Shown piece after piece: positions 255 through 53,630 of a stretch of DNA of 64,000 nucleotides. Both the position numbers and the translations under genes were made by a program. The DNA comes from Balneola sp. (lineage in GTDB: Bacteria > Bacteroidota > Rhodothermia > Balneolales > Balneolaceae). The stretch covers positions 1 through 64,000 of the forward strand of contig RHLJ01000006.1 of the NCBI GenBank assembly GCA_003712055.1, written 5' to 3'. The notes beneath the pieces are model-generated. The model was not told the origin of the DNA. It did no database searches and saw nothing but the letters and a program-made list of their open reading frames with translations. The first letter of the stretch is position 1; each line of letters begins with the position of its first letter.

Positions 255-512
255 ATGAAAAAGGGGATAATAAAAATAACAGGTATGTTATGCTTAATTG
301 CTATAATAACTGTAAACATAACTTCTACTTTTCAAATAAGTCTAGGTGGTGAGGAAGTAAGGGCAAGTGATCCAGATAAAATACCTTGCTATTCCGCATA
401 TTCACACAGCACTGGACATACTCTTGTATTTTGTCTAGGGTGTACAGAAAAGAAAGGGCAACATTCTGGAACAGCAGGAGAATGTACACCTGAAGATTTA
501 GGCGAAAATTAA
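255..512 (+). CDS. Small secreted Cys-containing peptide precursor, NVEALA-like (cassette A)
   Basis: An 85-residue protein with a hydrophobic N-terminal export segment (residues 5-29), then LGGEEVRAS and a polar tail with cysteines at 45, 60, 63 and 77 (C-x14-C-x2-C-x13-C). The peptide of cassette D (51734-51994) has cysteines at exactly 45, 60 and 63 and at 78, and the same GGE(E/D) segment, so the two are homologues. The layout recalls the NVEALA small-protein family of Bacteroidota, which I recall lying beside beta-propeller lipoproteins; that assignment is by resemblance only. The gene is 50 nt ahead of a propeller lipoprotein gene, with a hairpin in the gap. Unlike cassettes B to D, no AraC-type regulator precedes it. 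The role is unknown; a processed extracellular peptide with disulfides is inferred. Confidence 0.7.
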   Translation: MKKGIIKITGMLCLIAIITVNITSTFQISLGGEEVRASDPDKIPCYSAYSHSTGHTLVFCLGCTEKKGQHSGTAGECTPEDLGEN

Positions 513-524
513 GCTAAATATTTA

Positions 525-550
525 AAGGTGATCTTATTGAAGATCACCTT
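525..550 (+). promoter_or_regulatory. Intercistronic hairpin between peptide and propeller genes (cassette A)
   Basis: A perfect 10-bp stem (AAGGTGATCT / AGATCACCTT) with a 6-nt loop lies 12 nt after the peptide stop and 11 nt before the propeller start. It lacks a strong T run, so it may act as a weak attenuator or mRNA 3'-end stabiliser rather than a full terminator. Cassettes C and D have hairpins in the same place. Confidence 0.6.
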
Positions 551-561
551 ATTTGAAATAA

Positions 562-1653
562 ATGAAAAAATCTATCTTTATTGTCTTTTTGCTGGTTATC
601 GGTTGCTCGGATACTTATGAGAAAATAGATGCAACCTATATAAAGCCGATGCCTGAGCCAATTGAACTAGTAGGTGAGAAAATTGAAACAGAAGAAAATG
701 AACTTTACAGATTATTCTACTTGGATTTCATTGATTCTAATTTAGTGGTGACGACGGCAAATGAAAATATGTTAATTGGAATATATGATCGAAATGGTAA
801 ATTCAGAACAAGATTTGGAAGGATAGGTAAAGGGCCAAATGAATTCAACGATTTAGTAGAAATATATGATTTTCATAGAGAAGAAGATTTAATAGCAACA
901 AACGTTGATGTAAATTTGTTGACATTAGACAAAATAAATCTTAGTAAATCAATAGAAAATGAAAACCCATATATGGAAAATTCTTATGAGTTTCCGCGGG
1001 AGCTACGTCGTATATCAAGGGCGTTTTATATAGATAGCACTAAAATTATAGGAGTCTATTCAGGTCATTATTATAAGAATTTGGATCAAAGAACAGGTTT
1101 ATTTGACTTTGATCCGAGTGCTAACAAATTCAATTATTATCGATTACCAAATCTAGATTTTAGGCCTAGCGATCCTACTGATATTGCATATCGTCAGAAT
1201 ATGTCTACCCTAAATTCGAGACATATAGATCTTTCGCCTTCAAATAATAAATTAGCAATTGCAATGCGCTATTCGCCTTTGTTGCAAATTTACGAAGTGG
1301 GTGATAAGAATTTTGAGTTGAGAAAGAGTTCTTACATGCAAGAAGAAAATACGGGGCCAGAATATGAGATGGTATTATTTGAACAATGGGCATATCCAGA
1401 ATTTTTTCATGATATAACAGTAACTGATGATTATATATATCTATTAAAAAATGCCAAGTATTTATTAGATGAGGAAGAAAAAGAGGTGCATGTACAAGTT
1501 CTTGACTGGGAAGGGGAGCCTGTGAAAGTTTTTAGTTTGGGTTCGGAATATGATATAGACAGGTTTACTGTAAATCAGGGCGATTCAATAATTTTTGGTA
1601 TGAGTTATTCTCGAGACGCGCTTTTTAAGTTTTCTTATGGTAATTCAAAATGA
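562..1653 (+). CDS. Six-bladed beta-propeller lipoprotein (cassette A)
   Basis: A 363-residue protein with a lipoprotein signal (lipobox VIGC, Cys15), so it is probably anchored in the outer membrane or periplasm. The body shows propeller-type repeats, including the blade motif RFGRIGKGPNEF around residues 84-95, typical of the TolB-like/BF3164-like six-bladed propellers of Bacteroidota. It aligns along its length with the propeller of cassette D: FPREL, YIDSTKIIGVYSGH and the SPSNNKLAIA segment all have counterparts. It follows the peptide gene and overlaps the thioredoxin gene by 4 nt (ATGA), indicating translational coupling. Binding partner and function are unknown; holding or sensing the adjacent peptide is inference. 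Confidence 0.82.
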   Translation: MKKSIFIVFLLVIGCSDTYEKIDATYIKPMPEPIELVGEKIETEENELYRLFYLDFIDSNLVVTTANENMLIGIYDRNGKFRTRFGRIGKGPNEFNDLVEIYDFHREEDLIATNVDVNLLTLDKINLSKSIENENPYMENSYEFPRELRRISRAFYIDSTKIIGVYSGHYYKNLDQRTGLFDFDPSANKFNYYRLPNLDFRPSDPTDIAYRQNMSTLNSRHIDLSPSNNKLAIAMRYSPLLQIYEVGDKNFELRKSSYMQEENTGPEYEMVLFEQWAYPEFFHDITVTDDYIYLLKNAKYLLDEEEKEVHVQVLDWEGEPVKVFSLGSEYDIDRFTVNQGDSIIFGMSYSRDALFKFSYGNSK

Positions 1654-2219
1654 AAAAATTAGAATCAACTATACTTATTGGTATTTTAATAGTTTTGAAT
1701 GTATGGCTATTATACAATAACCAACAAAAAAATCTCATAATAGAAGAGCTTCATGAAAACTCAAATTCATCAAGTTGGAATGTTGAGACTTTAGATAGTA
1801 CTCTTATTCATATAGTCAATGATAGAGTACTAATACCTCAAAATGAGATTCAACTTAAGGTTTTCTTTTCTGATCAAGGCTGCCAAACATGTATACAAGA
1901 TGAGGTAAATCTATTAAATGAAGTTTATAATTTACATCCTAAGAAGTTTAATGCATACTTAATAACACAAAAGGCTCCTACATATTTAACTCGTATGTTT
2001 GGCGCTAGTTTTAAGTATGAATTGATTAGTCCCGAAAAAGATATCTTTGATGTTAGATATGAGTTCGTAAACCCAATTGCGGTTTTAGTAGATTCCACAG
2101 GGTTAGTACATAGAGTTCATAAAGCTGAGGTAGCAAATAAAGATAAGAGTGAACAATTTTACAATCAGGTTAAAAATTTATTTGAAGAATTAGATACTCG
2201 CAGGAACAAAAGCCGTTAA
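1650..2219 (+). CDS. Membrane-anchored thioredoxin-like protein (cassette A)
   Basis: A 189-residue protein with one N-terminal membrane anchor (residues 8-22) and a periplasmic thioredoxin-like domain. The redox site is GCQTC (Cys78, Cys81) at the end of a beta strand (LKVFFSDQ), and a cis-proline-like NPIAVL follows near residue 142. The cassette D homologue shares GCxxCIQ(D/N)EVNLLN and NPIA(V/F)L. TlpA/AhpC-type thiol-disulfide exchange is the likely activity; acting on the cysteines of the neighbouring peptide is inference. The last codons (AAC AAA AGC CGT TAA) fall in the edge of the duplicated 5S rRNA piece, so the stop codon is supplied by rRNA-derived DNA and the original C-terminus may have been cut. 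Confidence 0.75.
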   Translation: MKKLESTILIGILIVLNVWLLYNNQQKNLIIEELHENSNSSSWNVETLDSTLIHIVNDRVLIPQNEIQLKVFFSDQGCQTCIQDEVNLLNEVYNLHPKKFNAYLITQKAPTYLTRMFGASFKYELISPEKDIFDVRYEFVNPIAVLVDSTGLVHRVHKAEVANKDKSEQFYNQVKNLFEELDTRRNKSR

Positions 2220-31196: not shown

Positions 31197-31607
31197 ATGA
31201 TAGATAGGTTTAAGAGAATTCAAGTAATCAAGGAGCAGTACACTTTAAAGTTTGATAATTGCAAAGAAGAATGGCCAATAGATGTGCAAAGAGTGTATAA
31301 GTTTGTACATGAACATTTATTCGAATCTGATCTCAACGTATCAATAGCATTGAAACAATGTTGTATATCAAATAAAAATTTCTCGGGTAAATTTAAACAC
31401 TACGTCGGGCACGGTTTGAAAAACTACATCCTTCATTTAAGGATTGAAGCTTCAAAAGAAATCTTAGGAAGTATGGAGAAAGAAGAAAACATATGCTGTG
31501 CTGGTTTTGAAGTTGGCTTTATAAGCTACAGTGCGTTTAGTAGATCATTTTCTAAAGCAGTTGGAATGACACCAAAAAATTTCAAGGAAAAAATTGAGGA
31601 GAATTGA
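31197..31607 (+). CDS. Stand-alone AraC-type DNA-binding regulator (cassette B)
   Basis: 136 residues, almost all an AraC-family DNA-binding domain: the first helix-turn-helix around LNVSIALKQCCISNKNFSGKFKHYVG, the linker helix LKNYILHLRIEASKEIL, and the second around CCAGFEVGFISYSAFSRSFSKAVGMTPKNF. The sensory domain usual for AraC proteins is missing. The N-terminal 30 residues match nothing I know. It lies 61 nt upstream of the cassette B peptide gene, so control of that peptide is likely. No 13-bp tandem array is present here, unlike cassettes C and D. Confidence 0.82.
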   Translation: MIDRFKRIQVIKEQYTLKFDNCKEEWPIDVQRVYKFVHEHLFESDLNVSIALKQCCISNKNFSGKFKHYVGHGLKNYILHLRIEASKEILGSMEKEENICCAGFEVGFISYSAFSRSFSKAVGMTPKNFKEKIEEN

Positions 31608-31668: not shown

Positions 31669-31896
31669 ATGAAAAATTTTTTTAAGCTCAGTTCAGTTTT
31701 ATTAATGTTATTATTCTTTACAAGTGATTCTTTTTCAAATGACCCGGGAGCCTGTGAAATTGGCTTAATAGTTTGTATTAATTCTAACCCTTATGACCCA
31801 TCTATACCCGACCAATATGCAGCAGCTGTTATTCATGTTATGGCATGTAACACGTCATATTATGCATGTACAATAGCAGAAGCAGAAGGTTTTTAG
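31669..31896 (+). CDS. Small secreted Cys-containing peptide precursor (cassette B)
   Basis: 75 residues: a signal peptide (to about residue 23, SFS) and a mature part of about 52 residues with four cysteines arranged as two C-x6-C pairs (Cys29/Cys36 and Cys60/Cys67). The pattern differs from cassettes A and D and there is no thioredoxin gene here. The gene is followed within 20 nt by the propeller lipoprotein gene, without a hairpin in the gap. Function unknown; assigned to the same class by size, export signal, cysteines and position. Confidence 0.6.
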   Translation: MKNFFKLSSVLLMLLFFTSDSFSNDPGACEIGLIVCINSNPYDPSIPDQYAAAVIHVMACNTSYYACTIAEAEGF

Positions 31897-31915
31897 TTAA
31901 TTGAGGAGCAGAAAA

Positions 31916-33058
31916 TTGAGAAATCTAAGTTTCATCATTTGCGTAACCTTTCTGTTCCTTTCTTTTTTTCTTGCTACATGTAAAAAAAAGAGCTCTAAGA
32001 AGGAGGAGGAAAAAAGTCAGACTTTTTCTTCCTTTGTAGCGAATTTAAATCAAGTTCAAATAGAATCTGAGCAGGAGCCATTTACAAGTGAAAACATCAT
32101 AATACCATTTCGTCTAGATTTGGATAATTATGGAAATGTTCTAGCTGTTAGTCCTAGTGATTGGAATTTGCAGTTACTTGATAAAAATGGAGTAAGCTTG
32201 GGAATTCAAGGTGGTAATGGAATGGGGCCAGGTGAATTTCAAGTGGTTAATTCTATTTATGTAGATGAAAAGAATAACATTTTCATCTTAGATATGAGAG
32301 GAAATAAAATTGAATCATATGGTGTCCGAAACGATTCACTTATATACAGAATGGGTTTCTCTCTTCCAAGTTATTATCCATTTCTTATATATGATTTTGC
32401 AAAAGTAGGAGATCAGTATTTTGGAATTTTCAAAGATGTTTTTTCCCAGCATTCTGATGGTAAAAATGATCAATCTTTTATTCTATACTCGTTAAATGAT
32501 AAACTCGAAATGGAAGAGGAATTGTATGTATTACCTACAGGGGTAGTGGCTGATAGAAAGGGAAATGGTATAATGCAAAATGAATTTCTAAGCTATGAGA
32601 CGTATCGGATATTTAGAAATAGCAAGCTCTTCATAGCTAACTCAAAAGAATTCTCAGTTACAGAAGTTGATTTGGTTACTCGATCAGTAAAAAACTACGA
32701 TTTAGGATATTTTCCGAAAAGAAAGAAAAAAGAAGAAGAGGTAGACTATATTTTAGATGAGTACGAAGGATTAACAACGATATTCCCAAATGTTGAAAAC
32801 AATTTAAGAGAGCCGGGGAATTTTCCTCTTTTTAGTGTTTTCGATGTTACCTCTGAATATGCCTACTTTCGTATTTATAATTTTTCGGAGGAGAGCAACA
32901 GCCAGATCATTAGGATTAATCTTTCAAGTAATGAAAAAGAATTAATTACAGTATCGAAAAACTTCTATTTCTATAGAGCTACAGATGAAGCTGTATATGG
33001 TATATACGAGGGATTAGATAGAAGATATCCTATGCGCATACAATTAGATAATTTATAG
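31916..33058 (+). CDS. Six-bladed beta-propeller lipoprotein (cassette B)
   Basis: About 380 residues with an N-terminal signal ending in LATC, a lipobox-like site (its Cys starts a Lys-rich stretch). Blade motifs include QGGNGMGPGEFQVVNSIY and NNIFILDMRGNKIESYG, the TolB-like/6-bladed propeller signature GxGPxEF. I chose TTG 31916 because GAGGAG lies 7 nt upstream; TTG 31901 is the alternative. Its 3' end overlaps the 3' end of the convergent purine nucleoside phosphorylase gene by 6 nt, so the cassette abuts the core gene exactly. Confidence 0.8.
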   Translation: MRNLSFIICVTFLFLSFFLATCKKKSSKKEEEKSQTFSSFVANLNQVQIESEQEPFTSENIIIPFRLDLDNYGNVLAVSPSDWNLQLLDKNGVSLGIQGGNGMGPGEFQVVNSIYVDEKNNIFILDMRGNKIESYGVRNDSLIYRMGFSLPSYYPFLIYDFAKVGDQYFGIFKDVFSQHSDGKNDQSFILYSLNDKLEMEEELYVLPTGVVADRKGNGIMQNEFLSYETYRIFRNSKLFIANSKEFSVTEVDLVTRSVKNYDLGYFPKRKKKEEEVDYILDEYEGLTTIFPNVENNLREPGNFPLFSVFDVTSEYAYFRIYNFSEESNSQIIRINLSSNEKELITVSKNFYFYRATDEAVYGIYEGLDRRYPMRIQLDNL

Positions 33059-41562: not shown

Positions 41563-41640
41563 ATTTCCAACGGCTTAAGAATAGAGAGAAGTAAAAAAGC
41601 CGTCTTGTCAAAATGGTCATCAATAAATATGAACTCAAAT

Positions 41641-41703
41641 GCAACACATAGAGAATGCTGTTGATATTTTAGGGCAGCATATCAGTTCGATTATTGAGTA
41701 AGT
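41641..41703 (+). pseudogene. Truncated 5' fragment of an AraC-type regulator gene
   Basis: A 20-codon frame MQHIENAVDILGQHISSIIE then TAA. It matches the start of the cassette D regulator (MHKIENAVDILGEHI) and, more weakly, the start of the intact regulator 26 nt downstream. It is therefore the leftover 5' end of a third regulator allele, sitting with its own upstream element. It could also act as a leader peptide, which is not supported by anything else. Confidence 0.7.
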
Positions 41704-42070: not shown

Positions 42071-42158
42071 TGGGGAATAATCATGGGGAATAATCATGGG
42101 GAATAATCATGGGGAATAATCATGGGGAATAATCATGGGGAATAATCATGGGGATAAT
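42071..42158 (+). repeat. 13-bp tandem array (TGGGGAATAATCA), six full units plus one decayed
   Basis: Units start at 42071, 42084, 42097, 42110, 42123 and 42136, all identical; a seventh has lost an A. The array lies between the cassette C regulator and peptide genes and ends 59 nt before the GTG/62 nt before the ATG of the peptide. Perfect identity implies recent expansion by slippage. Its position suggests an operator or spacer array. Confidence 0.93.
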
Positions 42159-42220
42159 AGTTTGAGAATACAGCTCTGGTAGAATAGATTTGATCTTCAA
42201 TTTTAAATAACTATACAGTG

Positions 42221-42469
42221 ATGAAAAAAAGTAAAATAATATTTAGCTGTTTCTTTGTAATGCTACTTTGTATGTTTATGGACGTTAGAGCATCTTATGC
42301 TGATTGGTGGCAGTGTACCAATTCTTCAGGTAGTGTTATCATAGATATAGTTAATAATGATAATGATACCGTGTCTTGGATCATGTATACTTCAGACGGA
42401 ATTTTTCTCGAAGAAGGCACTATTGGAGGACAATATGATGGAGGAGATGATTGGTGTTATCCTTCATAA
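42221..42469 (+). CDS. Small secreted peptide precursor (cassette C)
   Basis: 82 residues from ATG 42221 (a GTG one codon earlier is possible). A signal peptide ends about SYA, giving a mature peptide near 54 residues beginning DWWQC and ending DDWCYPS. Only two cysteines remain in the mature part, near each end, so one long-range disulfide is possible. The centre is acidic and Asn/Asp-rich (IVNNDNDTVSW). It has the same size, export signal and position as the peptides of cassettes A, B and D but little sequence similarity. Function unknown. Confidence 0.6.
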   Translation: MKKSKIIFSCFFVMLLCMFMDVRASYADWWQCTNSSGSVIIDIVNNDNDTVSWIMYTSDGIFLEEGTIGGQYDGGDDWCYPS

Positions 42470-42501: not shown

Positions 42502-42531
42502 AAAGCAATGACCTAGTCGTTGCTTTTTATA
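42502..42531 (+). terminator. Terminator-like hairpin between peptide and propeller genes (cassette C)
   Basis: An 11-bp stem (AAAGCAATGAC / GTCGTTGCTTT, one T-G pair) with a 3-nt loop and T-rich sequence after it lies directly before the propeller start. It should reduce read-through from the peptide gene into the lipoprotein gene. Confidence 0.68.
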
Positions 42532-42534
42532 TTT

Positions 42535-43617
42535 ATGCGATTATTATTTTTAATATTAAGTGTATTCATACTAAGTTGTAAAAATGAGCACAGTGTACCA
42601 GGGTATGTGTCAGAATTGGAATTAGATTCTTTTGATTATATAGGATTAACAGTATCAGATGAAGTTATTAATTCGGATACATTAGTTTTCGAGTCTCTGT
42701 ATGATATCGAAACAGCTAATGGGAGTGATCCAATATCGAACTTCCCCGTAGATATAGGAAAAGTAGGTGAACAGTACTGGATTTTGGATGTGCGAGGAGG
42801 TGCCATTCATGTATATGAAGCGAATGGTGAATATGTGAAAACTATAGCTCAAAAAGGAAAGGGGCCTAATGAATTACTAAAGCCTGCATCCATCAATACC
42901 ATCGTGGAGAATCAAGAGCAAATCAGGATATTTGTTTTGGATACTGGTTTAAGCAGTTTAATTGAGTACGATAAACATGGAAAAGAAATTGACCGAACTG
43001 TAAGTGAGTTTATTAATACAAATTATTGGTCACTTGACTTAGTGAACGGTGATAACAATACCTTCTTTATTCAACAATCACCATACAAAGATTCATTGCT
43101 CATCCAAATCGATACTGAAGCCAAATTGGTGAATAAATTTATTCCCAGAATTACACCATTAAATGATTCATACATATCCCATAATCGTATTACTCATGAT
43201 TATAACGATACACAACGTATGCTAACCTATGGATTTAAAGGCCTTCCATTAATCTTTATTGTAACCGAATCTGAAAAATATGTATTCAATCTTCTTCCGG
43301 ATAAAGAATTAACGGAATTCAATAAGCCTTTTATGAGAAAAACGAAAACGTCATTTACTGGAAATGCCAATGATCTAATAGGCCAGGGAATTAATATTAT
43401 CCTTCATGATTTATCGATTACGAAAGAAAAGATTTACTTTAGCTATATGGGAAAGCTCCATTCGATTGATTTAGCTACAAAAAAAGTGACCAAATATATA
43501 TTAGTTGAAAGTACAGGTGACCCCATAAGCGGGTTTACAAGGTTAAAGATCAGGGACAATGAAATTTTTTTAATTAACTCCGTCAAAAAAAAGATTCATA
43601 AGAGCTTCATTAACTGA
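42535..43617 (+). CDS. Six-bladed beta-propeller lipoprotein (cassette C)
   Basis: About 360 residues with the signal MRLLFLILSVFILSC (lipobox ILSC). Blade motifs include IHVYEANGEYVKTIAQKGKG followed by PNELLKPASINTI, and FVLDTGLSSLIEYDKHGKEI, matching the 6-bladed propeller family of the other cassettes. I chose ATG 42535 over TTG 42520 because it gives a clean lipoprotein signal. There is no thioredoxin gene after it; the next genes encode an RND pump. Confidence 0.8.
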   Translation: MRLLFLILSVFILSCKNEHSVPGYVSELELDSFDYIGLTVSDEVINSDTLVFESLYDIETANGSDPISNFPVDIGKVGEQYWILDVRGGAIHVYEANGEYVKTIAQKGKGPNELLKPASINTIVENQEQIRIFVLDTGLSSLIEYDKHGKEIDRTVSEFINTNYWSLDLVNGDNNTFFIQQSPYKDSLLIQIDTEAKLVNKFIPRITPLNDSYISHNRITHDYNDTQRMLTYGFKGLPLIFIVTESEKYVFNLLPDKELTEFNKPFMRKTKTSFTGNANDLIGQGINIILHDLSITKEKIYFSYMGKLHSIDLATKKVTKYILVESTGDPISGFTRLKIRDNEIFLINSVKKKIHKSFIN

Positions 43618-43892: not shown

Positions 43893-46800
43893 TTGCTTCT
43901 TAGAAAACCCATTGCCTCGGTTATCATTGTTCTAGCCGTTTTAATTTTTGGTGGGATTTCTCTGTCCCGGTTATCCGTAGAATTGCTACCGGATGTAAGC
44001 CAGCCGAGCTTACTTATTTCGACGGAGTATATTGGAGCCCCAGCTTCGGAAGTAGAGTACCGGATTAATGAGCCACTGGAAGGGATTATGGGTTCGGTGA
44101 AAGGGGTAAAAGAAATTCGTGGGTTAGCCCGTCAAGGCAAGAGCCTATTGTTCCTCACCTTTAACTGGGGAACCGATATGGATTTGGCATTTCTGAATGT
44201 GAGAGAAAAGCTGGACCAGGCCCGGTATTTACTGCCAGAACAGTCCGAAAGGCCGCAAATCATATACGCCTCAGGTTCCGATCAGCCTGTCGCGACTTTG
44301 TCGCTTTCCAATAAGAATCAGGAGATTCAAAGTTTTAGTGACCAGCTAGAATTAAAGCAATGGGCAGAGCAGGTATTTACCCGAAGGTTAGAGCAGCAAG
44401 AAGGGATAGCTCAGGCCATACTGGTTGGTGCAGTAGAGCCAGAAGTGCAAATCAATTATGACCCTTCTTTACTTGATCGCTTTGATGTTTCCCTGGCCCA
44501 GGTGCAACAGGTGGTTCAGGATGCAAACCTGTTTTCTTCGACAGGAGAGCTTAGAGACGGCTGGTATCGCTATGCCTTAAAAATTGAAAGCCGAATAAAT
44601 TCGATAGAAGATATTCGCCAAACTCCGGTCAAGTCGCTGGCTAATGGGAGAGTGCTACTTCTTGATGAACTGGCTGATATTACCCTTACTGAAGCAGATC
44701 CTACATCCTTTGCACTATTGGATGATAAAGAGATACTAAGTGTTCAGGTAAAAAAAGAGTTTGGGTCAAATACAGTATCTGTATTTGAAACTTTATTGGA
44801 AACCTTAGGAGAGATAGAAACTCAATACCCGGAAATAGAAATCGGGATTGTACTCGAGGATGCTACCTATATTCAGAACTCCATCTCTAACTTACTTCAG
44901 ACCTTGCTTATAGGTGGTGTGCTGGCATTTATGGTGCTGTTTCTTTTTCTAAACGATGCCCGAACTCCTTTCACTATTGGGATTTCAATTCCAGCAAGCA
45001 TTTTCCTCACTTTTACCCTTATGTTTGTTCTCGACATTCAATTGAACATCATTTCTTTGAGTGGATTGACATTAGGTATTGGGCTGCTTTTAGATAACTC
45101 AATTGTTGTGCTGGAGAATATCAATCGATATAAAGAGCAAGGCTTAGACAGGTTCACCGCTTCGCTAAAAGGGACAAGGGAAATAGCCCTGGCGGTAACT
45201 GCATCAACTTTCACAACCGTATCCGTATTTCTACCACTGCTTTTTTTAGGTGGATTCGAAGGAGCCTTTTTTCGAGATCTTGCCGCTACCTTATCTATCA
45301 GTCTGCTTTCATCGTTATTAGTGGCATTAATAATTCTTCCTGTTTTTGTAGCACAATTTTCGTCTGATAAGGAAAGTAAAATTCTTGGGCGTATTTCAAT
45401 ATGGCTGACAAATCTCGTTCAGGCTTATGAAAGAAGTCTTTCAAAAGTAAAAAAAAGACCACTCGTTGTTTTTGTAGTTGCTTCGCTACTCATAGCAAGT
45501 ACTATTGGTACCTTTCTATATATAGATAAAGCTTCTCTTCCGGAAAGTGAACCGGATCAACTTGAATATCTAATCACTTTGCCGGGTAATACCTCGCTTA
45601 GATCTACTCAGGAAATAGCTTTTGAAGTAGTACGAACGATTCAGAGCAACAGTGATATTGAAGGGATTCTAGCCTATGCAGGATATACCGATGATATAAG
45701 CCTAAATACGGTTACCGATGAGGCTCTCAATAAACTTCATCTCTCTATTCCGGTAAGTAATCAGGAACAAATTTTTCAAGTCGAAACCATTTTCGAGCAA
45801 TTGCTTGCCAGTTATGATACCTGGGATATAATTCAAAAAGCTACCAGAGGTTTTACTGTTGTGGAATCTTCCAGTGAAGTTCCGGTAGAAGTATCCATTA
45901 TTGGAGAAGACAGAACATTTAGTAAACGGGTAGGGAGTGCTTTATTTGAGGAGCTATCGGATGATTTTCCTAGCCTTCAAACCCAGGAAAAATACCCTCA
46001 GAGAGTATCGGTGTATCAACTCCGGTTCAAAAGCAAAGAGTTACTTAACTATGGTATTTCGGAAAGAGAAGTTATAAACTATCTCGAATCTGTTTCCAGG
46101 GGAAAGTGGATTACGGATTGGACAAGGCAGGATGAAAATGTTTCGGTAAGGCTTAGAGCTCAGGGTCAGCAAGTCATACACCCTGACGATATCAGCTTGA
46201 ATTTTGATGATAAAATTATCCCTCTTTCTGACCTGGTTATTATTACAGAAGCAGAAGAAGCCGAGCAGATTGAGCGGATTGGGCAAGCTCCTGTGCTTAC
46301 ATTTACAACTAATCTTAGTTATACAGATTGGTGGTGGAAGTCAGCGTTAATCAATGAGGAAATCCAGCAGTTTATGAGAGAAACAAGTCAGGAGGTTCGG
46401 GTTTTTGGCCAAGCTCCGGAGCTCATTGAATTATTAAAACAATTAGGAATGCTTTTGTCGCTAAGCGTCCTTCTAATCTACCTGATTCTTGCTATCCAAT
46501 ATGAAAACCTGCTCTATCCTTTGCTCATTATTTTAGCTATTCCATTTGCATGGATTGGCTCTATAGGAATACTCTTTGTTACAGGCTTAAGTTTGAATGC
46601 TCTCTCTTTTATGGGAATTTTAATACTTACTGGTATTGCAGTAAATGATTCTATTTTGAAAATAGATTTTATGAGAAGATATCTCGCTGAGACAGGAGAT
46701 CTGGACGCTGCCATACAACAAGCGGGCATTAATAGGTTCAGACCTGTGGTTATGACAAGTTTGACAACTATTTTGGGTCTAATACCCATGCTTATTCCTA

Positions 46801-46946
46801 TTGGAGATGGGTATGTATTTCGTCAGTCTTTGGCAATTGCTTTGGTTGGGGGCCTATTTACGAGTACATTACTAACATTGTACATAATTCCTACCGTATT
46901 CAGAGTTATTAATCGTAAGAAATATCAATTAAATAAAACGTCATAA
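43893..46946 (+). CDS. RND efflux permease subunit 1 (HAE1/AcrB-like)
   Basis: 1017 residues with the RND layout: TM1 (about 6-26), a first large periplasmic loop, TM2-6 (about 330-470), a second loop, and TM8-12 (about 845-1000). The proton-relay helix reads GLTLGIGLLLDNSIVVLENI, with one acidic residue where AcrB has two (DD), so proton coupling may rely on the single Asp. The start is TTG 43893. Stop and the next start overlap (TAATG), so it is coupled to the membrane-fusion gene. Confidence 0.92.
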   Translation: MLLRKPIASVIIVLAVLIFGGISLSRLSVELLPDVSQPSLLISTEYIGAPASEVEYRINEPLEGIMGSVKGVKEIRGLARQGKSLLFLTFNWGTDMDLAFLNVREKLDQARYLLPEQSERPQIIYASGSDQPVATLSLSNKNQEIQSFSDQLELKQWAEQVFTRRLEQQEGIAQAILVGAVEPEVQINYDPSLLDRFDVSLAQVQQVVQDANLFSSTGELRDGWYRYALKIESRINSIEDIRQTPVKSLANGRVLLLDELADITLTEADPTSFALLDDKEILSVQVKKEFGSNTVSVFETLLETLGEIETQYPEIEIGIVLEDATYIQNSISNLLQTLLIGGVLAFMVLFLFLNDARTPFTIGISIPASIFLTFTLMFVLDIQLNIISLSGLTLGIGLLLDNSIVVLENINRYKEQGLDRFTASLKGTREIALAVTASTFTTVSVFLPLLFLGGFEGAFFRDLAATLSISLLSSLLVALIILPVFVAQFSSDKESKILGRISIWLTNLVQAYERSLSKVKKRPLVVFVVASLLIASTIGTFLYIDKASLPESEPDQLEYLITLPGNTSLRSTQEIAFEVVRTIQSNSDIEGILAYAGYTDDISLNTVTDEALNKLHLSIPVSNQEQIFQVETIFEQLLASYDTWDIIQKATRGFTVVESSSEVPVEVSIIGEDRTFSKRVGSALFEELSDDFPSLQTQEKYPQRVSVYQLRFKSKELLNYGISEREVINYLESVSRGKWITDWTRQDENVSVRLRAQGQQVIHPDDISLNFDDKIIPLSDLVIITEAEEAEQIERIGQAPVLTFTTNLSYTDWWWKSALINEEIQQFMRETSQEVRVFGQAPELIELLKQLGMLLSLSVLLIYLILAIQYENLLYPLLIILAIPFAWIGSIGILFVTGLSLNALSFMGILILTGIAVNDSILKIDFMRRYLAETGDLDAAIQQAGINRFRPVVMTSLTTILGLIPMLIPIGDGYVFRQSLAIALVGGLFTSTLLTLYIIPTVFRVINRKKYQLNKTS

Positions 46947-48010
46947 TGAGAACCAGGTCTAAATACATATTAAACATGATACCTGTATTGGCCCTTTTTT
47001 TGTTAGTTGGCTGTATAGGTGAGAAAGAGAGAGTAGAGCAACCTGATTTAGATAGTATAGAAATACGTCCTGAAGTAGTCTTTACTGTAGTTGATGCAGA
47101 ACCACTACAATTTTTTGTAGAAAGCAGGGGAGTAATAGAACCGGATCAAAAAATTTCTCTCGCACCAAGAATAGGTGGATTCCTTGAAAACCATAATATT
47201 GTTGAAGGCAAAGTAATTGAGGAAGGAGAACTCATCTTTCAACTGAATAAGGAAGAATGGGAATTGAGGGAGCAAGAGGCTTATAATAACTATCTGAAAG
47301 CTAAAGCTGATTTTGAAGTAGAAGCACAACTTCGTGGTACTAATGGAAATACGAATGACCTGGAAGGGTATCGAATTACCTCCGGACTTGCTGATGCAGA
47401 GATCGCTTATGACCGAGCGAAGCTGGACCTTTCCTATACCACATTGAAAGCTCCTTTTTCAGGTATAATATCCACGAAAGAAGTAATTACGAATGGGGCA
47501 TATATTTCTGCTGGAAAGGAACTGGGGGTGCTAATCAATAGTGAAATTGTATATGTTCGCTTCGATGTACTGGAATCAGAGATTAGTGGCTTAAACTCAG
47601 GAATGGAGATTCAACTAGAAGATCCATCAGGCAATTCTTTTTCTGGTGTGATATCAGCTATTTCACCTGAAATAAATCTGGATACCAAAACAGGACAGGT
47701 AGTTGCAAAGGTGGAAAACCCCCAAGAGTATTTAAAACCGGGAATGACGGTTGAAGGAAGAGTTTTTGTAAGAAGCGAAACAAGTAAAGTGAGAATGCCC
47801 AGAGAGGCATTGCTGGAAAGAGATGGACGAACGTTGGTATTCAAGCTTAATAAGGATGAAGTTGAGTGGATTTATGTAACTCCGGAGGCTATGACCACTG
47901 AATGGGTACTCGTAAATCATCCGGATATTTTTCCAGGGGATACCTTAGCTATAGACAAACATTTTAGTATCAGCCATCAGCAAAAAGTGGTGCCATTGTT
48001 AGATAATTAA
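46946..48010 (+). CDS. RND periplasmic adaptor (membrane-fusion) lipoprotein
   Basis: 354 residues with a lipoprotein signal (LLVGC, Cys23). Lipoyl-like halves (SLAPRIGGFLENHNIVEGKV and LSYTTLKAPFSGIISTKEV) flank a helical hairpin (about 110-150), followed by a beta barrel (VRFDVLESEISGLNSGMEIQ) and a membrane-proximal part (RMPREALLERDG). This is the HlyD/AcrA-type adaptor joining pump and outer-membrane channel. It is placed between two permease genes; no TolC-type channel gene is nearby. Confidence 0.92.
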   Translation: MRTRSKYILNMIPVLALFLLVGCIGEKERVEQPDLDSIEIRPEVVFTVVDAEPLQFFVESRGVIEPDQKISLAPRIGGFLENHNIVEGKVIEEGELIFQLNKEEWELREQEAYNNYLKAKADFEVEAQLRGTNGNTNDLEGYRITSGLADAEIAYDRAKLDLSYTTLKAPFSGIISTKEVITNGAYISAGKELGVLINSEIVYVRFDVLESEISGLNSGMEIQLEDPSGNSFSGVISAISPEINLDTKTGQVVAKVENPQEYLKPGMTVEGRVFVRSETSKVRMPREALLERDGRTLVFKLNKDEVEWIYVTPEAMTTEWVLVNHPDIFPGDTLAIDKHFSISHQQKVVPLLDN

Positions 48011-48014
48011 AGCA

Positions 48015-51000
48015 ATGGAAGAATTACTGAGGCGCAAATACCTGATCTCCTTTTTTTACCTGATGGTATGTTTGGTAGGATTTGTAGCTTGGAATTCTAT
48101 AAGTATTGAGCAAACACCTGAACTCAACTTACCATCCATTACAGTTTCTTATTCGTGGGGAAGCACTGTTCCTGAGATTATGGAACAGGAGATTACGCGA
48201 AAAGTGGAAAGTGCTGCAAATCGTCTGCGAGATGTTTCAGAAATACGATCTATTACCCAGGAAGGAAGGAGTTCAGTTACCATTACCTTTTTCAAAAATG
48301 CGCCGGTAGAATTCCGGGCTCTTGAAATGCGGGAGTATTTGAATACTCTGGAGGCTGATCTCCCCACTAATATTTCTCCGGCATCTATTTCTCGACAGGT
48401 GCCCCAGGAATTAGAGGACCAGCAAACTTTTCTGATTTTTACCCTTAGTGGAGAATTGCAGGGAAAAACATTGCTCGAATACGCCCGGCAAAATATAAAA
48501 ACCCAATTGCTGGGGACTGAGGGATTAGCTGATATAAAACTGGAAGGGGTAGAAGACCCGGCATTAATCATTGAATTTGATCGTGATCAACTTGAAAAAT
48601 ATGATATTTCCCCCAGCCTTGTTTTAGTAGAGATAAGGGATAAACTCTCCTGGAATGGTGCGGGTTTTGTAGATGGAATGGGAGAACGAACAAGCCTGAT
48701 ATTACCTCCGGTATTTAACCAGCGAGCTGATATTGCCGGAATGAGAATATCACTTCCAGGCTCTCAAAGACAATTATTACTCGAAGAAATTGCTTCAGTA
48801 AGTGTTACCGATTATCCTTCTAAAACAAAGAGAAGGATAAATGGGAATCCTGCATTAACTATAGAATTCGTGAAAGAAGGAGGGGCAGATGCTTTAGAAC
48901 TTGCGAAAGAGATTATTGAAAAAATGGAGATAATAGAGTCCAAGATTCCTGAAGGGATGGAACTAAGAATGCAGTTTGATTCGACAGAGGAATTGAGGGA
49001 ACAATTTGATGAATTAGCTACTCAGGCTATGTTAAGTGGAGTGCTAGTATTTGTCATTGTACTGCTATTCATCCGGAGCTTACGGGCCCCGCTAATTATC
49101 ATCGGTAGTGTGCTTTTCTCAGTATTAATGAGCATAGCGTTGCTCTTGGTTTTTAATTATACACTCAATGTAATTACTCTCGCGGGCATAACCATTGCAC
49201 TTGGGATGTTGATTGACAACGCAGTGGTGGTTTTTGAGCAGATTAATTCTGAGTTGCCTCTCTCAAGGCAGGAAAGGAGTAAGCATATAATTGGAAAACT
49301 TGGGAATGCTGTTGTTCCTGTATTTGGCAGCACATTTACAACCATAGGTATTTTTATTCCGCTTCTTTTTGCCCTGGATGAACTGAAATTATTCCTAATG
49401 CCACTTGCAGTGGCATTAACCCTCACTCTTGTTTGTTCTGTACTAATCGCTTTTACCTGGATTCCTTATGCTTTGATATGGCTTACCTCCGAAAAAGAAA
49501 ATGGCTCTGCCAAAAAGCCCAGGAGAAATATTGTTTCAAACAAACTTGGACTTCAACTTCTCTTTTACCGAAACAAATTAAAGTGGGTTGTTTTAGCAGC
49601 ATTGATATGGCTGATTGGTGTTCCTCTGTTTCTTATTCCTGATCCTGACTGGGAAAGCACCAATTGGCCGGAATTCACACAGGTTTATTTTGATAATCGT
49701 GATAATATCGATCCGTGGATAGGAGGAATCACACAGAAATTTGTAAGTGAAACCTATTTTGGAAGTCCATGGAGTAGAAGCGAACAAGAGTATATAACGG
49801 TTTATATCCGCTCTCCTCAAGGCACGCCGCTTTCCGAGATCGATAAGATTGTAGCTAACTACGAGACAATTGTAAAACCCTATCAGCAGGCCTTCACCTA
49901 CTATGAAGCTCAGATGTCAGAATACTATGGTGCTCATATCAGGTTTGCCGTTGACCCTGATTATTTATTTAATCCCGACCCTTATTATTTCTTTGGAGAG
50001 GCAATGTACCTGGCAGCTCGTACAGGTAATGTAGCTACTTCTGTTTCGGGTTTTGGTGACGGGATAAGTACTGGCTTTGGAGGGCAGTCTTCTTCTCATA
50101 GGATTCAGCTAACGGGATATTCCTATGATGAGCTTTATGAATTGGCTGGAGAAATTCAGAGAAGACTGGAGAGGAATCGACGTGTAAGAGAGGTAGATAT
50201 TAATTCAAGCTCCTACTTCAGTAGAAACGATTTTCAACAATATAAGCTAGAGTTGGATAATGAAACGATAGTCGCGAAAGGTTTAGATCGAAGAGAAGTA
50301 TTACAGGCTTTATCCATAGACTTGAATCCAACTAATACGGTTAGCAAAGTGGAGTTCGAAGGTCAAAAAATGTACCTGATAGGTACCACTGGAGCAGAAC
50401 TAATGTATGAAGAAGATCTCATGAACACACCAAGGGAAACCCAAAATGCTTCCTTTAACCTTGCTCGAATAAGTGAAATTCAAAAAGAGAAAGCGTTAAC
50501 AGAGATTCGAAGAAATAACCAATCTTATGAACGAACAATTACCTTAAATTTTTTGGGGAATTTCCGAATGGGAAGGGAATATATCCAGCAAACTTTAGAT
50601 GCAGTTCCTGTTCCAGTAGGGGCAAGCATTAACTATGGTTTTTCTTTTTTTGGAAGGGATAACGAAGAGACTACTAGAAATTTATGGTTCATAGCTTTTC
50701 TAAGTGTATTAAGTGTCTGGATGATTGTTTCAGCACTACTTGAGAGCTGGAAAGGGCCGCTTTTTGTGATTCTTGCTGTTCCGTTATGTGGTATAGGTAT
50801 TATGCTTGGCACTCTTTCTAACGATCTTGCATTTGATCGAGGAGCAATAGCCGGGGCATTGTTAAGTATCGGGGTAGTAGTTAATAATGCAATTCTTTTG
50901 ATCCATCAGCATCAGTTGGAATTAAAAAAAGGAATAGGTGGACTTAGAAACTGGCTGTATGTATTTAGAAAAAAGATTCGGACAATTTTAATTACAACCA

Positions 51001-51143
51001 CTACTACCATAGCAGGATTAACCCCTATGCTAATTTTTGGTTCCAACGAGTTTTGGGAGCCACTTGCAGTTATTGTGATCTGGGGATTGTTGTTTAGTAC
51101 TGGGTTACTGCTTTTTGTTTCTGGAATGTGGGTGAAAAAGTAG
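48015..51143 (+). CDS. RND efflux permease subunit 2
   Basis: 1042 residues with the full RND layout. TM1 spans about 10-28, the central helices 340-480, the last block 895-1035. The relay helix reads GITIALGMLIDNAVVVFEQI, again one Asp followed by Asn. Similarity to subunit 1 is general only, so they are not recent duplicates. The RND-MFP-RND order suggests a heteromeric pump in which two different permeases share one adaptor, as in the MdtBC type. Substrate unknown. Confidence 0.92.
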   Translation: MEELLRRKYLISFFYLMVCLVGFVAWNSISIEQTPELNLPSITVSYSWGSTVPEIMEQEITRKVESAANRLRDVSEIRSITQEGRSSVTITFFKNAPVEFRALEMREYLNTLEADLPTNISPASISRQVPQELEDQQTFLIFTLSGELQGKTLLEYARQNIKTQLLGTEGLADIKLEGVEDPALIIEFDRDQLEKYDISPSLVLVEIRDKLSWNGAGFVDGMGERTSLILPPVFNQRADIAGMRISLPGSQRQLLLEEIASVSVTDYPSKTKRRINGNPALTIEFVKEGGADALELAKEIIEKMEIIESKIPEGMELRMQFDSTEELREQFDELATQAMLSGVLVFVIVLLFIRSLRAPLIIIGSVLFSVLMSIALLLVFNYTLNVITLAGITIALGMLIDNAVVVFEQINSELPLSRQERSKHIIGKLGNAVVPVFGSTFTTIGIFIPLLFALDELKLFLMPLAVALTLTLVCSVLIAFTWIPYALIWLTSEKENGSAKKPRRNIVSNKLGLQLLFYRNKLKWVVLAALIWLIGVPLFLIPDPDWESTNWPEFTQVYFDNRDNIDPWIGGITQKFVSETYFGSPWSRSEQEYITVYIRSPQGTPLSEIDKIVANYETIVKPYQQAFTYYEAQMSEYYGAHIRFAVDPDYLFNPDPYYFFGEAMYLAARTGNVATSVSGFGDGISTGFGGQSSSHRIQLTGYSYDELYELAGEIQRRLERNRRVREVDINSSSYFSRNDFQQYKLELDNETIVAKGLDRREVLQALSIDLNPTNTVSKVEFEGQKMYLIGTTGAELMYEEDLMNTPRETQNASFNLARISEIQKEKALTEIRRNNQSYERTITLNFLGNFRMGREYIQQTLDAVPVPVGASINYGFSFFGRDNEETTRNLWFIAFLSVLSVWMIVSALLESWKGPLFVILAVPLCGIGIMLGTLSNDLAFDRGAIAGALLSIGVVVNNAILLIHQHQLELKKGIGGLRNWLYVFRKKIRTILITTTTTIAGLTPMLIFGSNEFWEPLAVIVIWGLLFSTGLLLFVSGMWVKK

Positions 51144-51257: not shown

Positions 51258-51590
51258 ATGCACAAAATAGAGAATGCAGTTGATATATTAGGAGAGCATA
51301 TTACGAGAGTTACTACCGTAGCTGAGTGGGCAGAGCTCATGGGGTATTCTTCGGCAGATTATTTTTCAAAAAAAGTTAAGACTCATTATGGCTGTTCTCC
51401 GAAAGAAATTTATATACAACAAAAAATCAAGAAGATAAAAGAATGTCTCAGAACATCTCCTGACGATATTTATTATTGTATTGCCCGAGAATTAGGTTTT
51501 GCAAATGATACTGCTTTATACAAGTTTGTTAACAGGCATACTGGTATGTGTATAGGGAGTCTGAAAAGGGAGTCTGAAAAGGGAGTCTGA
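51258..51590 (+). CDS. Stand-alone AraC-type DNA-binding regulator (cassette D)
   Basis: 110 residues with two helix-turn-helix units (VAEWAELMGYSSADYFSKKV and YYCIARELGFANDTALYKF), homologous to the cassette C regulator. No sensor domain. The 3' end runs into the 13-bp array: the last residues, SLKRESEKGV, are read from repeat units and the stop TGA lies in the third unit, so changes in copy number would not alter the first part of the tail but the C-terminus is repeat-derived. Likely controls the peptide gene 143 nt downstream. Confidence 0.8.
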   Translation: MHKIENAVDILGEHITRVTTVAEWAELMGYSSADYFSKKVKTHYGCSPKEIYIQQKIKKIKECLRTSPDDIYYCIARELGFANDTALYKFVNRHTGMCIGSLKRESEKGV

Positions 51591-51676
51591 AAAGGGAGTC
51601 TGAAAAGGGAGTCTGAAAAGGGAGTCTGAAAAGGGAGTCTGAAAAGGGAGTCTGAAAAGGGAGTCTGAAAAGGGAG
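51555..51676 (+). repeat. 13-bp tandem array (GGGAGTCTGAAAA), nine full units plus GGGAG
   Basis: Nine identical units start at 51555 and every 13 bases to 51659; the array ends 58 nt before the cassette D peptide start. Its unit sequence differs from the array in cassette C, but period, GGG-rich start, place and distance to the peptide gene agree. The first three units are also coding for the regulator C-terminus. Confidence 0.94.
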
Positions 51677-51733
51677 AAACTCATCTCCTGAAAACATAAA
51701 TTTTTATGTCAACTTGAACTAATCATTGTAACA

Positions 51734-51994
51734 ATGGAGAAAATTAAATATAAAATTATAATTTTGTTTGCGTTTATTTTTTTAATTACCATAAACTTAT
51801 CTGAAGAACATAATATAACGATTGGAGGTGAAGATGCTTATGCTAGATCTGGAGATCTTATACCATGTTGGTCTCAATCAAAAATAAATTTGACATATGA
51901 CTATACCAATTGTACTACTTGTACTACAGTACAATTTAGAAGGGGGTTGGCACCTCAATCTGAATGTACTACGTCAAATCCTGGCGAAGAATAG
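51734..51994 (+). CDS. Small secreted Cys-containing peptide precursor, NVEALA-like (cassette D)
   Basis: 86 residues: an N-terminal hydrophobic segment (6-22), then ITIGGEDAYARSGDLIPC and a polar tail with cysteines at 45, 60, 63 and 78 (C-x14-C-x2-C-x14-C). Cysteine positions and the GGE(D/E) segment match cassette A, so the two peptides are orthologous in type. Thr- and Asn-rich between the cysteines (NCTTCTTVQ). It is followed by a hairpin, a propeller lipoprotein and a thioredoxin. Function unknown; a disulfide-containing secreted peptide is inferred. Confidence 0.72.
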   Translation: MEKIKYKIIILFAFIFLITINLSEEHNITIGGEDAYARSGDLIPCWSQSKINLTYDYTNCTTCTTVQFRRGLAPQSECTTSNPGEE

Positions 51995-52017
51995 CCTAAA
52001 TAATTAATAAAATTTGT

Positions 52018-52043
52018 GCAAAGGTATATTTATATACCTTTGC
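52018..52043 (+). promoter_or_regulatory. Intercistronic hairpin between peptide and propeller genes (cassette D)
   Basis: A perfect 11-bp stem (GCAAAGGTATA / TATACCTTTGC) with a TTTA loop lies 23 nt after the peptide stop and 11 nt before the propeller start. Same distance to the propeller start as in cassette A. Confidence 0.65.
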
Positions 52044-52054
52044 CTTATAAGTAA

Positions 52055-53101
52055 ATGAAATTTTCAAACATATTTTTTCTAGCAAGCATAATCCTGATAC
52101 TAAATTGTGTAGAACAAAAGAATAATAATATAGAAGTAGTAACAAATTTTCCTGAGCCTATAGACTTAAAAGAAGAAATAATTCTTGAAGATCAGTTTGG
52201 AAATTTTTTTATAAAACCATTAGATAGTTTATTATTACTAAGTACAATTCAGTTAGATTCTTTATACCATGTTTACAATGAGGATCTCTATAAAATTGGA
52301 GTGTTCGGCAAAATTGGCCCTGGCCCTGATGAGTTATTGATTCCTTATCATATATATGACAATACTAATAGTAGTGTTTTTATATTTGATGCACAGTTAC
52401 TTAAACTAAAAGAAATCGATTTAACACTTTCTATTGATTCATCACGAATTATAGTAAAAAGAGAAATTAATTTGCCTAGAGAGTTTATCGGATTAAGAGA
52501 AATTTTTTACTTAGATAAAGCAAATCTTATCGGAATCTATGACGATCATATTCATCAAAGGATTGATTCAAAAAAAGGAATCGTAATCTACAATTTTCAA
52601 AAAGATGAATATGACATAATTGAACTTATAAATTTTAAGCTAAATCCCTATGATAGAACTGAACAAATTAATATTAATTCAAGAACTCCTGTTTTATCCC
52701 GGAATAATAATAAATTAGCTTTAATTAGTGTACATGCACCACTCCTTGAAATAATTGATATAAATACAAAAGAAAAAAGAAATTTTATCTTAGAGGAAGA
52801 TTCTAAATTGGATTTAGAATATCCATTATCTGAATTTATAGATATGAATTTAATTCAATATTACGTTTTTGCTACAGCTAATGATGATAATATTTATCTA
52901 CTTTACAGGGGAAGTAATGAACTCACAGCTCCAGATAATTTTTACATAAAAGTAATTACTTGGGATGGTATTCCAATTGAACAATATAAAGTAAATGGAA
53001 ATTTAGATATATCTATGATAAGTATAGATGTAAATGAAAATTATATTTACGCTATAAGTTTTAATAATGATGAGATTTATAGATTTAAATTGGATAACTA
53101 A
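52055..53101 (+). CDS. Six-bladed beta-propeller lipoprotein (cassette D)
   Basis: 348 residues; lipoprotein signal ends in LILNC (Cys18). It has the blade motif GVFGKIGPGPDELLIPYHIY (about 82-101) and aligns with the cassette A propeller, for example LPREFIGLREIFYLDKANLIG against the FPREL...FYIDSTKIIG segment. The gene is clearly more AT-rich than the flanking pump genes, a sign of separate origin. It overlaps the thioredoxin gene by 35 nt. Confidence 0.82.
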   Translation: MKFSNIFFLASIILILNCVEQKNNNIEVVTNFPEPIDLKEEIILEDQFGNFFIKPLDSLLLLSTIQLDSLYHVYNEDLYKIGVFGKIGPGPDELLIPYHIYDNTNSSVFIFDAQLLKLKEIDLTLSIDSSRIIVKREINLPREFIGLREIFYLDKANLIGIYDDHIHQRIDSKKGIVIYNFQKDEYDIIELINFKLNPYDRTEQININSRTPVLSRNNNKLALISVHAPLLEIIDINTKEKRNFILEEDSKLDLEYPLSEFIDMNLIQYYVFATANDDNIYLLYRGSNELTAPDNFYIKVITWDGIPIEQYKVNGNLDISMISIDVNENYIYAISFNNDEIYRFKLDN

Positions 53102-53630
53102 AAAAGAGTTATTGGTAGGAATTTTTATTTTGCTAGCAATAAATATTTATTCCATTTCAAAAAATAAAAGCTATAAAACTATATTAAATAGTATACCTAT
53201 AAATAGCTACTATCAAGACGATAATGGTCTAAAAGAATTTAAGTTAAATAAAACCTTAGTTAACGCAGGGCATGGTGATATACATCTATATATTTTTTTT
53301 AAAAGTACTGGTTGTATTGAGTGTATTCAAAATGAAGTTAATTTATTGAATGACAATCTTGAAATAAATCACTCTTTTTTTACTGTTTTTTTGATAGGAA
53401 ATGATTCGACATTACTCGAAAGGTTATATGAAGCTGAATTCGGATATAAGTTACTGCAATCTAATACAACAATAGTTAACGAGGATCTAAATTTTGATAA
53501 TCCGATCGCTTTTCTAGTTACATCTACAGGAAAAGTTTTAGATACTCATTATTCCGAAATAGATAAGCCGAATAAAAGTATAGTTTTTTATAGACGTAAT
53601 TTTAGGTTAATTAAATTTTTAAGTAACTAA
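53067..53630 (+). CDS. Membrane-anchored thioredoxin-like protein (cassette D)
   Basis: 187 residues with one N-terminal membrane helix (about 14-31) and a thioredoxin-like domain with GCIEC (Cys83, Cys86) and NPIAFL. The block GCxxCIQ(N/D)EVNLLN is shared with cassette A. The start at 53067 overlaps the propeller gene by 35 nt; a later, weaker start is possible. Periplasmic thiol redox activity is likely. Only the two cassettes whose peptides have the CxxC-containing four-Cys pattern carry this gene. Confidence 0.76.
   Translation: MMRFIDLNWITKKELLVGIFILLAINIYSISKNKSYKTILNSIPINSYYQDDNGLKEFKLNKTLVNAGHGDIHLYIFFKSTGCIECIQNEVNLLNDNLEINHSFFTVFLIGNDSTLLERLYEAEFGYKLLQSNTTIVNEDLNFDNPIAFLVTSTGKVLDTHYSEIDKPNKSIVFYRRNFRLIKFLSN

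Follow-up and report, generated by a model that had tools for sequence, protein, structure and literature searches.

What do four recurring gene groups on one Balneola contig produce, and what decides when they are expressed? The window, the whole analysed stretch of 64,000 nucleotides (contig RHLJ01000006.1), carries four loci, here called cassettes A to D, which a sequence-only reading had described as a repeated unit of AraC-type regulator, small exported cysteine peptide, six-bladed propeller and CxxC thioredoxin. All four are real peptide-propeller cassettes and lie where that reading had placed them (Table 1). The proposed four-part order holds in its core, the peptide and the propeller; the AraC-type gene and the thioredoxin-like gene are optional. 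Cassettes B, C and D are indeed headed by AraC-type proteins of 101-136 aa without a sensor domain (HTH_18, 4e-9 to 3e-14). Cassette A has no AraC gene, and a 5S rRNA gene ending at position 82 lies upstream of it, so that at the contig end (positions 1-255) the rRNA gene directly precedes the cassette.

Table 1. Positions of the parts of cassettes A to D in the window.
Cassette	Feature	Position	Strand	Support
A	exported Cys peptide, homologue of that in D	255..512	+	four Cys and GGE motif in common
A	hairpin, peptide/propeller gap	525..550	+	z -5.1
A	propeller lipoprotein	562..1653	+	TolB_like 1.4e-8, DUF5128 5.4e-7
A	membrane-anchored CxxC protein, thioredoxin-like	1650..2219	+	low-confidence model, homology to D
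B	AraC-type regulator, distant family member only, without array	31197..31607	+	HTH_18 1.3e-10; family profile E 3.5e-7
B	exported peptide, CX6C..CX6C	31669..31896	+
B	propeller	31901..33058	+	DUF5128 1.9e-6
C	AraC-type regulator, 101 aa	41729..42034	+	HTH_18 4.1e-9
C	13-bp tandem array, 6.8 copies (TGGGGAATAATCA)	42071..42158	+	TRF
C	exported peptide, mature part with two Cys	42218..42469	+
C	terminator-like hairpin, peptide/propeller gap	42502..42526	+	z -4.8
C	propeller lipoprotein	42520..43617	+	DUF5128 2.1e-9
D	sensor-less AraC-type regulator, 110 aa	51258..51590	+	HTH_18 3.1e-14
D	13-bp tandem array, 9.5 perfect copies (AGGGAGTCTGAAA); putative operator array	51554..51676	+	TRF
D	exported Cys peptide, 86 aa, GGEDAYA motif	51734..51994	+
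D	hairpin, peptide/propeller gap	52018..52043	+	E -15.2, z -4.9
D	six-bladed propeller, putative lipoprotein	52055..53101	+	L039 homologue 6e-64; AlphaFold and Foldseek
D	membrane-anchored CxxC protein, thioredoxin-like	53067..53630	+	33% identity to the A CxxC protein

Cassettes A and D are homologous units of peptide, propeller and thioredoxin-like protein (27-28% identity between the propellers, 33% between the CxxC proteins), and a homologous D-type unit with a regulator fragment, peptide, propeller and CxxC protein is found in another genus (locus L039). The cysteine pattern of the B peptide recurs in similar form on contig C7 of the same genome and at locus L191. The true start of the C propeller may be an ATG at 42535. 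Upstream of the C regulator (41638-41700) lies the remnant start of a second, D-like regulator (MQHIENAVDILGQHISSIIE, followed by a stop), a sign of earlier regulator replacement or recombination.

The association is not confined to the window. All seven propellers of this type in the genome itself, those of A, B, C and D, one on contig C7 (a one-frame fusion) and one each on contigs C1 and C2, are either fused to an exported Cys peptide or have its gene immediately before them. The cassettes on C1 and C2 (L164, L165) have neither regulator nor array; that on C1 contains two tandem Cys-rich peptides and ends in a gene for a DsbA-like protein (Thioredoxin_4, 2.7e-26). The end of contig C7 (L034, 4342-6653) holds a second D-like regulator, an in-frame fusion of a peptide with its propeller and, behind a regulator fragment, a 13-bp array (TGAAAAGGGACAG) cut off by the contig end. 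The fusion may reflect loss of a stop codon and is given no weight as functional evidence.

A total of 110 small sensor-less AraC-type genes across the order were examined together with their surroundings. A propeller lies nearby in 43 of the 110 loci, on the same strand in 41 of them, and an exported peptide with at least two cysteines stands between regulator and propeller in 33 of the 43, as opposed to 4 of 46 other loci under the same test (p = 2e-11). The neighbourhood is thus kept far more often than chance would allow, it is conserved in other genera, and the earlier expectation of several variants per genome is borne out. Of 129 genomes from the order, 87 have profile matches to the regulator, a few of which are longer AraC proteins; none was found at E<=1e-14 among 394 genomes sampled from the phylum outside the order. 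A search of genome contigs with a narrow-alignment profile gave four loci, three of them in one MAG.

The same regulator family, in many cases accompanied by arrays, also heads other machinery: 18 contractile injection clusters (Pvc16_N, phage-type sheath, CIS_tube) and about eight loci with a C39-peptidase ABC exporter, while 48 regulator loci were classed as other, some of them without an evident secreted system. On the regulator tree, which is poorly resolved, the propeller label requires at least nine changes, which argues that regulators and payloads have been re-paired repeatedly. Five loci (L126, L131, L136, L137, L138) form a clade in which the regulator homologues are longer and no secreted system follows them; conserved genes, common to the clade, lie on the opposite strand. 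This is possibly a resident form.

The DNA-binding domain with its two helix-turn-helix motifs fills the whole of the B, C and D regulators, which have no ligand or dimerisation domain and thereby belong with the single-domain, MarA-like members of AraC/XylS. The profile of the D regulator family matches, over nearly its full length, MarA, SoxS and RamA, proteins of solved structure that likewise lack a sensor domain. MarA, SoxS and RamA are global stress regulators with dispersed sites, whereas the present regulators are linked to a cassette and to a private array.

As for the product, the production of a secreted peptide is well supported by sequence features. Purifying selection on the peptide is clear in the best close pair (dS 0.86, dN 0.07 over 85 codons; dN/dS 0.08); between the D peptide and its L039 relative, dN/dS is only 0.53 at dS 1.4. 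Some cassettes encode maturation proteins alongside, namely signal peptidase I (Peptidase_S26, 1.7e-31), MauE (7e-13) and DsbA-like or thioredoxin-like proteins, and the peptide is probably disulfide-bonded. The reading of the cassettes as a dedicated system for such a peptide stands as a sequence-based prediction, and its NVEALA label falls: none of the four peptides matches an NVEALA profile in Pfam or NCBIfam at E<=1, although, like members of that family, they are small and exported and carry an A-x-A-like motif ahead of a tail with Cys. The literature searched made no mention of NVEALA. The layout also resembles that of class II bacteriocin loci that use a C39 exporter, in having a small first-gene precursor followed by partner and processing genes, and C39-exporter loci are among those headed by this regulator family. 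The cassettes differ from class II bacteriocin loci by a Sec-type signal in place of a double-Gly leader, and an immunity gene is at most putative. Profile searches recognised no toxin domain in the cassettes.

The propellers of A, B and C reach the DUF5128 cut-off (PF17170), and that of A also reaches TolB_like (PF15869, BF3164-type), both being families listed without function; the D propeller remains below both cut-offs and has no Pfam match. The latter is nevertheless homologous to the propeller of the L039 unit, and its predicted model (pLDDT 76) matches NHL six-blade propellers, which supports the propeller fold. Among 38 propellers from 38 other genomes, chosen for strong PF17170 matches irrespective of any regulator, a peptide was flagged at 13 (about 11 by count, one being a false-looking frame and one a MauE-like protein). 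The propeller family is therefore broader than the cassette. The CxxC proteins of A and D, which had been called thioredoxins, find no thioredoxin profile in Pfam, that of D having no Pfam match at all; what supports the name is the low-confidence model of the A protein, which resembles TlpA/ResA/DsbE folds. GCxxC is kept in A, D and L039 and absent in L210 and L212.

Two further elements, both absent from the earlier note, bear on expression. The first is a hairpin between the peptide and propeller genes. Of the 30 cassettes that could be tested, 23 have one with z below -2, A, C and D among them, as do 6 of 45 control gene pairs (p = 4e-8). Its stem varies in sequence and its position is constant. 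Cassettes B, C1 and C2 have no space for it because their peptide and propeller genes nearly touch. By analogy with bacteriocin operons, the hairpin likely serves to keep the peptide in excess of the propeller.

The second element, which together with the regulator we regard as the most surprising part of the system, is the 13-bp array. The only two strong tandem repeats that TRF reports in the window are the arrays of C and D, which lie in the regulator-peptide gap, have units of different sequence and, in D, overlap the stop codon of the regulator. In 108 loci the stretch between 60 bp upstream and 250 bp downstream of the regulator stop codon was scanned, and 35 of them showed period 13; most other periods occur in 0-3 loci, with the exceptions of 20 (10 loci), 28 (6) and the harmonic 26 (21). 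Roughly two regulator loci in three show no detectable period-13 array. Across the 892 kb of DNA that was fetched, there are 18 period-13 arrays within 34 kb near stop codons of the family versus 5 in the remaining 857 kb, a 90-fold enrichment. Array units differ between cassettes and still have an A-tract plus GG in common; an alignment of the 33 better units yields a single motif, AAAATTnGGtAGT, with a score of 7.55 versus 6.01 +/- 0.07 for position-shuffled units. In the 74 loci without a detected array this motif persists at the stop codon (36 of 74, versus 19 of 72 for the region upstream and 36 of 137 for a region further downstream), with an orientation bias of 52:7 and commonest spacings of 13 and 26 bp. 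The distance from array end to the next start codon is 57-94 bp in about half of the loci.

Several observations accompany the arrays. In most of them the repeat unit itself supplies the stop codon of the regulator (TGA, TAA or TAG according to the unit; 51587-51590 in the window, and others). Loci L155, L162 and L163 show period 20 instead of 13 near the stop codon and keep the A-tract plus GG core. Contractile injection clusters at L051, L053, L088, L091 and others carry AAAATTnGGTAGT repeats at the same place, a candidate control element for these systems, and in two C39-type loci (L090, L084) a TCATTGGTTTT stretch, a candidate promoter element, follows directly 3' of the array. Contig C7 breaks off inside an array, and a G011 contig stops at the regulator's 3' end, as would be expected if long arrays break assemblies. 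A protein-coding repeat was ruled out, since coding cannot explain a period that is not a multiple of three, and a known RNA was also rejected, Rfam finding only the 5S rRNA in the window.

Array and regulator vary together. Distances between units correlate with those between regulators (Mantel r 0.675, p 0.0002, kinship ignored), and the second recognition helix retains a partial r of 0.37 with the rest of the protein held constant (p < 0.001, kinship again ignored). Windows over this helix rank top in the protein, and the first recognition helix gives no such signal. Linkage could also produce such co-variation, because the second helix adjoins the array. Judging from these sequence relations, the regulator likely binds its array as an operator. 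A working precedent is ToxT of Vibrio cholerae, an AraC-type activator whose binding site is a 13-bp A/T-tract box arranged in direct repeats; moving the boxes apart by 5 or 10 bp abolishes activation (PMC3089052). The arrays are likewise 13-bp direct repeats with an A/T tract upstream of an activated, here candidate, promoter. ToxT, however, possesses a sensing N-terminal domain and uses one or two boxes per promoter, whereas in the cassettes the regulator is a DNA-binding domain alone, as many as about 10 boxes stand in tandem at its own stop codon and the repeat sequence differs for each paralogue; the resemblance is one of working principle, drawn by analogy, and not of homology or family membership.

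The explanation that we modestly favour for the whole is a plug-in activator with its own operator array that would drive secreted-effector cassettes, with a hairpin raising peptide over propeller. The cassette would be an operon that moves horizontally and encodes a small disulfide peptide for secretion. Its first gene would encode a single-domain activator of MarA/SoxS type, a switch set by protein level rather than by ligand, which may bind the array at the 3' end of its own gene with roughly one monomer per repeat and thereby switch on the operon starting, in about half of the loci, 57-94 bp beyond. Paralogous cassettes in one genome can be insulated because each activator has its own repeat sequence, and repeat number might shift by slippage and so tune output. 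With the peptide gene placed first and the hairpin behind it, more peptide than propeller lipoprotein would be made. The peptide would be exported, probably cleaved after its A-x-A-like motif (in some cassettes by their own signal peptidase I) and oxidised by the thioredoxin-like, DsbA-like or MauE proteins; the propeller would be its cognate cell-envelope partner, most likely for immunity or display. A role as a weapon against competitors is favoured by association: it gains indirect support from the regulator family also heading contractile injection and C39-exporter clusters, and because the device precedes injection machines and bacteriocin-type exporters as well, it resembles a plug-in switch for weapons or signals that are secreted. 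Whether it is a lineage-wide device, in which a sensor-less AraC-type protein and its operator array repeatedly front secreted weapons of different kinds (a disulfide peptide with its propeller, contractile injection machinery or a peptide leaving through a C39 exporter) under private DNA codes and with array length as an evolvable expression dial, we consider evenly balanced.

Other roles for the secreted products fit parts of the evidence. The peptide might serve as a signal or as a tag for recognition, with the propeller receiving or displaying it, in a system for communication between cells or kin recognition; several divergent variants per genome, propellers of lipoprotein type and the lack of a recognised toxin domain agree with this, yet the cassettes contain no recurring sensor or signalling gene, their regulator has no ligand domain and its family also fronts injection systems and C39 exporters, and we regard such a role as rather unlikely. 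It is less likely still that the propeller is the effector, a surface enzyme or binding protein, with the small protein as an accessory subunit that is not released. Of the 38 strong family propellers elsewhere, 26 have no detectable peptide, and Foldseek matches of the D model include exported propellers of Bacteroides and the peptide-amidating lyase PAL; the peptide gene nonetheless comes first and is followed by the hairpin, which favours peptide excess, and the peptide comes with a signal peptidase I and a MauE dedicated to it.

For the arrays, a role in RNA is conceivable because they sit 3' of the regulator gene and are probably transcribed. As a transcribed leader governing translation or stability rather than a DNA operator, they would account for the overlap with the gene end and for the dominant orientation, and the D array folds somewhat better as RNA than its shuffles (z -2.5); the C array, in contrast, is not clearly above them (z -1.6), Rfam has no match, and units that differ between cassettes retain an A-tract plus GG and vary in step with a helix for DNA recognition, which leaves this reading improbable. 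Most doubtful of all is that the arrays are neutral minisatellites grown at a slippage-prone site. Copies are nearly identical within an array and unlike between arrays, and copy number varies among related genera and species, as neutral growth would have it, but a 90-fold enrichment at the stop codon of this gene family, one period in diverged members and one common motif that persists where arrays are gone all speak against it.

The cassettes give a testable operon logic to families that had no assigned function, the small exported Cys proteins and the DUF5128 propellers. If regulators with their own arrays have truly been re-paired with unrelated effectors, they would constitute a natural set of insulated switches, and the about 33 regulator-array pairs would allow an AraC recognition code to be read by comparison; should the peptides be antibacterial, they would represent a new class of disulfide bacteriocins from a little-studied lineage. 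No described case of AraC-type 13-bp arrays, of AraC regulators of contractile injection clusters or of a function of these propellers was found in the literature searched, which consisted mostly of papers outside subscription.

Some further features concern the mobility and surroundings of the cassettes. The propeller and CxxC genes of D have 25% GC versus 38% in the window, and two genomes of the same genus have no regulator and no close match to the efflux-pump gene (the second RND) before D. A fixed insertion hotspot behind rpoN was considered and rejected, as its contents vary and a cassette is found there in only a few genomes; membership in a defence system was likewise set aside, PADLOC giving no match. 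Between C and D (43893-51143) lies an efflux operon of RND, membrane-fusion and RND genes, and RND pumps also adjoin cassettes in several other genera.
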